NCBI GenBank assembly: GCA_029706075.1
Contig: JAINUG010000110.1
Span: 1,645,213 to 1,709,212 of the forward strand
Reading direction: 5' to 3'
Source of the DNA: Aldrovandia affinis
Lineage: Eukaryota; Chordata; Actinopteri; Notacanthiformes; Halosauridae
Length of the DNA stretch: 64,000 nt
Every line of letters begins with the position of its first letter. Positions within the stretch are counted from its first letter, which is position 1. The position numbers and the translations under genes were made by a program. The notes under the pieces were generated by a model, which did not search any database, was not told the origin of the DNA, and was given only the letters and a program-made list of their open reading frames with translations. Shown piece after piece: positions 1,000 through 62,950 of the stretch.

Positions 1000-62950
<61,951 letters not shown>

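Follow-up and report, generated by a model that had tools for sequence, protein, structure and literature searches.

The 21-base segment at 33118-33138 of the 64,000-nucleotide stretch of DNA analysed here (the window), from the deep-sea fish Aldrovandia affinis, is, judged by sequence comparison, almost certainly the pcdh15b orthologue of the vertebrate PCDH15 cassette exon 12a. It was the comparison with other fishes that decided this assignment. An exon of this kind is already known and is present in the public gene models of many fish; it is missing from the Aldrovandia record. The most interesting part of the finding is the deep conservation of the exon, and gene models and expression constructs made without it omit a conserved isoform.

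The segment (CTTGCACCCAGTGCCACGCCT, + strand) is open, is read in phase 0 and encodes LAPSATP. It is preceded by an AG acceptor (...gtctctgtattttag) and followed by a GT donor (gtaggt), and its host intron, 3300 bases long and in phase 0, splits EC4 of the pcdh15 gene. The preceding exon stops at 32583 (...ALDNDIEE/gtagga) and the following exon opens at 35884 (gaag/TKDP...), an arrangement that the preliminary description of this DNA had given correctly. Because both flanking exons are in phase 0, inclusion of the 21 bases preserves the reading frame. The features of this region, all on the + strand, are:

32377..32583, +, exon before 12a, corresponding to mammalian exon 12, with the beginning of EC4, ending ...ALDNDIEE in phase 0 with donor gtagga (gene model; identical to P0121; aligned to human and mouse PCDH15 structures)
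33098..33117, +, polypyrimidine-rich acceptor of the predicted exon 12a, GTTTTGTCTCTGTATTTTAG (splice scoring)
33118..33138, +, predicted exon 12a, LAPSATP, phase 0 (translation, junction position, inserts of relatives, profile score)
33139..33144, +, donor of the predicted exon 12a, CCT/GTAGGT (splice scoring)
33211..33216, +, alternative downstream donor ATG/GTGTGT, which outscores the 12a donor and would yield a 93-base exon (splice scoring)
35884..36018, +, exon after 12a, corresponding to mammalian exon 13, TKDP..., phase 0 (gene model; splice scoring)

Splice sites were ranked with a simple score built on consensus frequencies. By this score the exon 12a acceptor is 10th among the 16 modelled acceptors of the gene and 7th among the 177 AG sites of the intron. 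It is thus a good acceptor and not an exceptionally strong one, mid-ranking for the gene where the preliminary description had called it strong. The exon 12a donor comes last of the 16 modelled donors (9th among the intron's 189 GT sites), and the acceptor of the TKDP exon scores lowest among the 16 modelled acceptors. The weak 12a donor and the weak acceptor of the next exon are compatible with optional use and do not prove it. The sequence GTGTG, which we take to be an RBM24-type motif, occurs at 33211, 72 bases past the 12a donor; it is one of three in the 3300-base intron, and we gave it no weight.

The host gene, which serves hearing and vision, is a PCDH15 orthologue, as established by structure alignment, identity with the annotated protein and a tree. 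Its model comprises 17 exons including 12a, which when joined encode 795 residues with zero stops and are taken to run from EC1 to the start of EC8. Without LAPSATP, the model protein matches P0121 (AAFF_G00025630, from the halosaur Aldrovandia affinis itself) at 788/788 residues. In a quick tree computed with the insert left out, the gene groups with the pcdh15b proteins of tarpon, eel, and conger (SH-aLRT 98); the names pcdh15a and pcdh15b are used as given in the database records.

The mammalian exon is documented by structure and literature. Human PCDH15 EC3-5 CD2-1 (PDB 6e8f) carries VPPSGVP between IED and TKDP, the very peptide that the preliminary description had given for mammals, and the peptide is absent from PDB entries 5t4m and 5t4n. 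When LAPSATP was added to the query, 6e8f rose from fourth to first PDB sequence match. A supplementary figure legend describes the mouse cassette exon 12a as seven residues in EC4, in isoform DQ354405 (PMC3679001), and human constructs lacking exon 12a are mentioned in a passage of another paper (PMC10133396). For a fish exon 12a, no mention was found in the titles, abstract starts and passages listed from the openly licensed PMC literature. The Aldrovandia segment shares with the human and mouse exon its location in EC4, the length of seven residues, Pro-3, Ser-4 and Pro-7, and the junction, which in human reads ...DIE(D/E)/TKDP. In contrast, 4/7 residues differ from the human peptide (3/7 identical), the Aldrovandia exon is a prediction from genomic sequence, and unlike the mammalian exon it sits in one of two teleost paralogues. 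The residue just before the junction (32581-32583) is Glu in Aldrovandia, Asp in human and Ala in PDB 5t4n, which is titled as the D414A variant. Since the Ala of 5t4n occupies this position, a known human variant adjoins the optional exon.

Protein searches (the best 120 of 198 matches, the best 120 of 373, and all 97 of a third set) returned 278 different proteins; in 241 of these both flanking exons were recognised and they were counted, and the other 37 were dropped. Among the matches listed, 203 of the 241 proteins have no insert at the junction, 26 have a seven-residue insert, 9 have an insert of some other length, and the junction of 3 was unparsable, counts that are not prevalences because the queries carried LAPSATP and the lists consist of cluster representatives chosen by score. 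The preliminary description had proposed to look for the same exon in relatives, and at the protein level it is found: the 26 seven-residue inserts among the matches listed come from 23 species of sharks, rays, chimaera, frogs, and teleosts, the last in both paralogues. The bony fishes concerned are Diretmus (two genes), three Sinocyclocheilus, Megalops, Electrophorus, Tachysurus, Salminus, Betta, Perca, Etheostoma, Larimichthys, Pempheris, Cheilinus, and Semicossyphus. The cartilaginous fishes are Callorhinchus, Stegostoma, Chiloscyllium, Scyliorhinus, Amblyraja, and Hypanus, and the frogs are Rana and Hyla. The junction inserts of 3, 5, 8, 10, 26 or 69 residues in 9 proteins among the matches listed are taken as putative gene-model noise. 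For jawless vertebrates, the single lamprey protein parsed (P0055, 1355 residues) has no insert, and in the single hagfish protein (P0107) the junction was unparsable, a sample that says little.

The inserts form a recognizable family. When 18 distinct inserts are taken together with those of Aldrovandia and human, Pro-7 is invariant and position 1 is Leu or Val (20/20 each); Pro-3 and Gly-4 each occur in 14/20, and Ser-4 is found only in Aldrovandia and human. Mean pairwise identity (Aldrovandia and 22 proteins) is 0.54 within the insert, against 0.75 in the 30 residues before it and 0.61 in the 30 after it. A close counterpart is LAPNATP of the tarpon (Megalops atlanticus) pcdh15b protein P0122, which belongs to the same elopomorph pcdh15b clade and shares the junction and 6/7 residues; it differs by having Asn in place of the Aldrovandia Ser-4, and its insert is already part of a public protein model. 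The LAPGDTP of the acanthomorph pcdh15a clade (Perca, Etheostoma, Larimichthys, Pempheris, Diretmus) has the same junction and length and the same Leu-1, Ala-2, Pro-3, Thr-6, and Pro-7, but it lies in the other teleost paralogue and has Gly-Asp where Aldrovandia has Ser-Ala at 4-5. Cartilaginous fishes (VASGATP, VPSGATP, VPSGSTP, VPPGTTP, VSPGTTP, and VLSGATP) share the junction, the length and, in 6/6, Thr-6 and Pro-7, whereas they have Val at 1, Ser or Pro at 3, and Gly at 4. The exact junction, the frame and the fit of the peptide to the inserts of relatives bear out the original proposal of a fish counterpart of exon 12a.

Both forms are represented in the databases for Rana temporaria, Callorhinchus milii, and Sinocyclocheilus grahami, and there the models that carry the insert match those that lack it at every position over the 80 residues to either side. 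Such paired records in three species are what would be expected of a cassette exon.

Three other explanations of the segment were weighed. The best surviving of them, and still a very improbable one, is that it is a decayed remnant, homologous to exon 12a by descent, whose splicing has been lost in this lineage. The annotated protein of Aldrovandia affinis, P0121, skips the segment, and this skipped form is the sole form found on record for the species; no other modelled donor of the gene scores as low as that of 12a; and, among the matches listed, no insert was present in the sampled pcdh15b proteins of eel (Anguilla) and conger. A cassette exon would be expected to have a weak donor in any case, however, and the segment retains its open frame, its AG and GT dinucleotides, Pro-3, and Pro-7, while the tarpon has an annotated match at 6/7 residues. 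LAPSATP itself is in 0 of the 278 retrieved proteins, P0121 included, and the other paralogues of Aldrovandia affinis and tarpon likewise have no insert, in both cases among the matches listed. The forecast that the segment, being too short for gene finders, would be unannotated therefore holds for P0121, the species' own protein, but not beyond it, since inserts appear in public models of 23 species among the matches listed.

Less probable again, at the level of a slight chance, is a longer exon, in which the 33118 acceptor is joined to the donor at 33211 to give 93 open bases and 31 residues instead of 7. This pair has the best combined simple splice score of the 167 open in-frame candidates of 9-200 bases in the intron. 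Against it, 26 relatives carry exactly seven residues, and the additional 24 residues match none of the parsed inserts, where no such extension occurs (both among the matches listed).

The LAPSATP segment is more than a chance resemblance. The window has 293 open AG-21-GT segments when its two strands are counted together, and no other among them shows at least 3 identities to VPPSGVP. A profile was made from the 18 distinct vertebrate inserts and the human one, with Aldrovandia left out; LAPSATP scores 17.0 on it, the top of the 293 window segments (runner-up 5.8) and of the 8 open AG-21-GT segments within the intron, a profile biased toward LAPSATP in that its inserts were retrieved with queries containing that peptide. 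Leave-one-out scores of the relatives range from -0.4 to 19.3, the lowest being that of the poorly fitting LAAHEMP of Diretmus, and the human peptide scores 7.8. When the human VPPSGVP, which is independent of the queries, is the sole yardstick, 43/3000 simulated introns hold a segment with at least 3 identities, so that likeness to the human peptide alone is weak evidence. That a random AG-21-GT segment happens to match the peptide given for mammals is hardly credible all the same, as 0/3000 introns simulated with a first-order Markov model reach the profile score of LAPSATP and the next segment in the window falls far behind.

For the place of exon 12a in EC4, we modeled a relative from S. 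grahami (P0072) with AlphaFold2 (465 residues, mean pLDDT 77.2, pTM 0.37). The insert, residues 144-150, falls between strands 133-137 and 157-160, B and C, with a pLDDT of 55 for residues 141-150, and DND at 138-140 directly precedes this low-confidence stretch. TM-scores against the listed PCDH15 chains are low (0.24-0.37 by query), and the model was used for secondary structure only for that reason. A comparison with and without insert was dropped because the model of a relative without it (P0081, mean pLDDT 60.3) is too poor. By the general architecture of cadherins, a DXD motif in such a position would face and serve the EC3-EC4 linker. The order of cadherin calcium motifs, as set out in passages of one paper, makes the DND before the insert a DXD calcium motif (PMC8691648).

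The predicted exon, with its weak donor, would be left out of some transcripts and kept in others. Its inclusion would, on the P0072 model, add seven residues ending in Pro to the B-C loop of EC4, right after the DND. The surface of the lengthened loop would adjoin the EC3-EC4 linker, and the effect would likely be local, with the fold of EC4 unchanged. A longer loop could make the linker more or less flexible, change how calcium occupies it, or affect the lateral contacts that Pcdh15 makes in hair cells and photoreceptors.

The presence of inserts in sharks, rays, chimaera, frogs, human, and both teleost paralogue clades of the tree indicates an early origin of exon 12a within the jawed vertebrates. 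Barring repeated gain, the exon putatively was there before cartilaginous and bony vertebrates diverged and before the teleost duplication. From shark to human, and in each of the two teleost paralogues, it has kept its length, position and closing Pro, and we therefore argue that the optional seven residues have a role. A bolder reading, which we put forward tentatively and regard as possible but rather doubtful, is that exon 12a has long served Pcdh15 as a regulated switch, older than the split of sharks and bony vertebrates and kept in both teleost duplicates. The switch would have been maintained for the sake of a mechanical or lateral-contact property that the Pro-ended loop by the EC3-EC4 calcium linker sets and that hair cells or photoreceptors choose by splicing. 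If this is true, similar splicing control of exon 12a would operate in fish and mammals.

Other elements of the window were recorded as well. The intron that holds exon 12a also contains a perfect inverted repeat at 34119-34169, with a stem of 23 base pairs and a loop of 5 bases (-44.5 kcal/mol, z -9.2). It has no Rfam match at the gathering threshold, and the 21-base core of its arm has no further copy in the window at up to 3 mismatches. Open stretches at 4898-5812, 51870-52115, and 58733-59693 lie within pcdh15b introns and read like remnants of Tc1/mariner-type transposases. Matches to the tRNA model at 17064-17121 (+) and 28625-28682 (-), inside introns, are probably derived from SINEs. 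The combination of a tRNA-derived SINE with a UnaL2-type tail occurs in eel genomes. At 6498-6636 (-), a tRNA-like head (6565-6636) adjoins a UnaL2 LINE 3' element (6498-6551), and the whole looks like a tRNA-derived SINE with a UnaL2-type tail.
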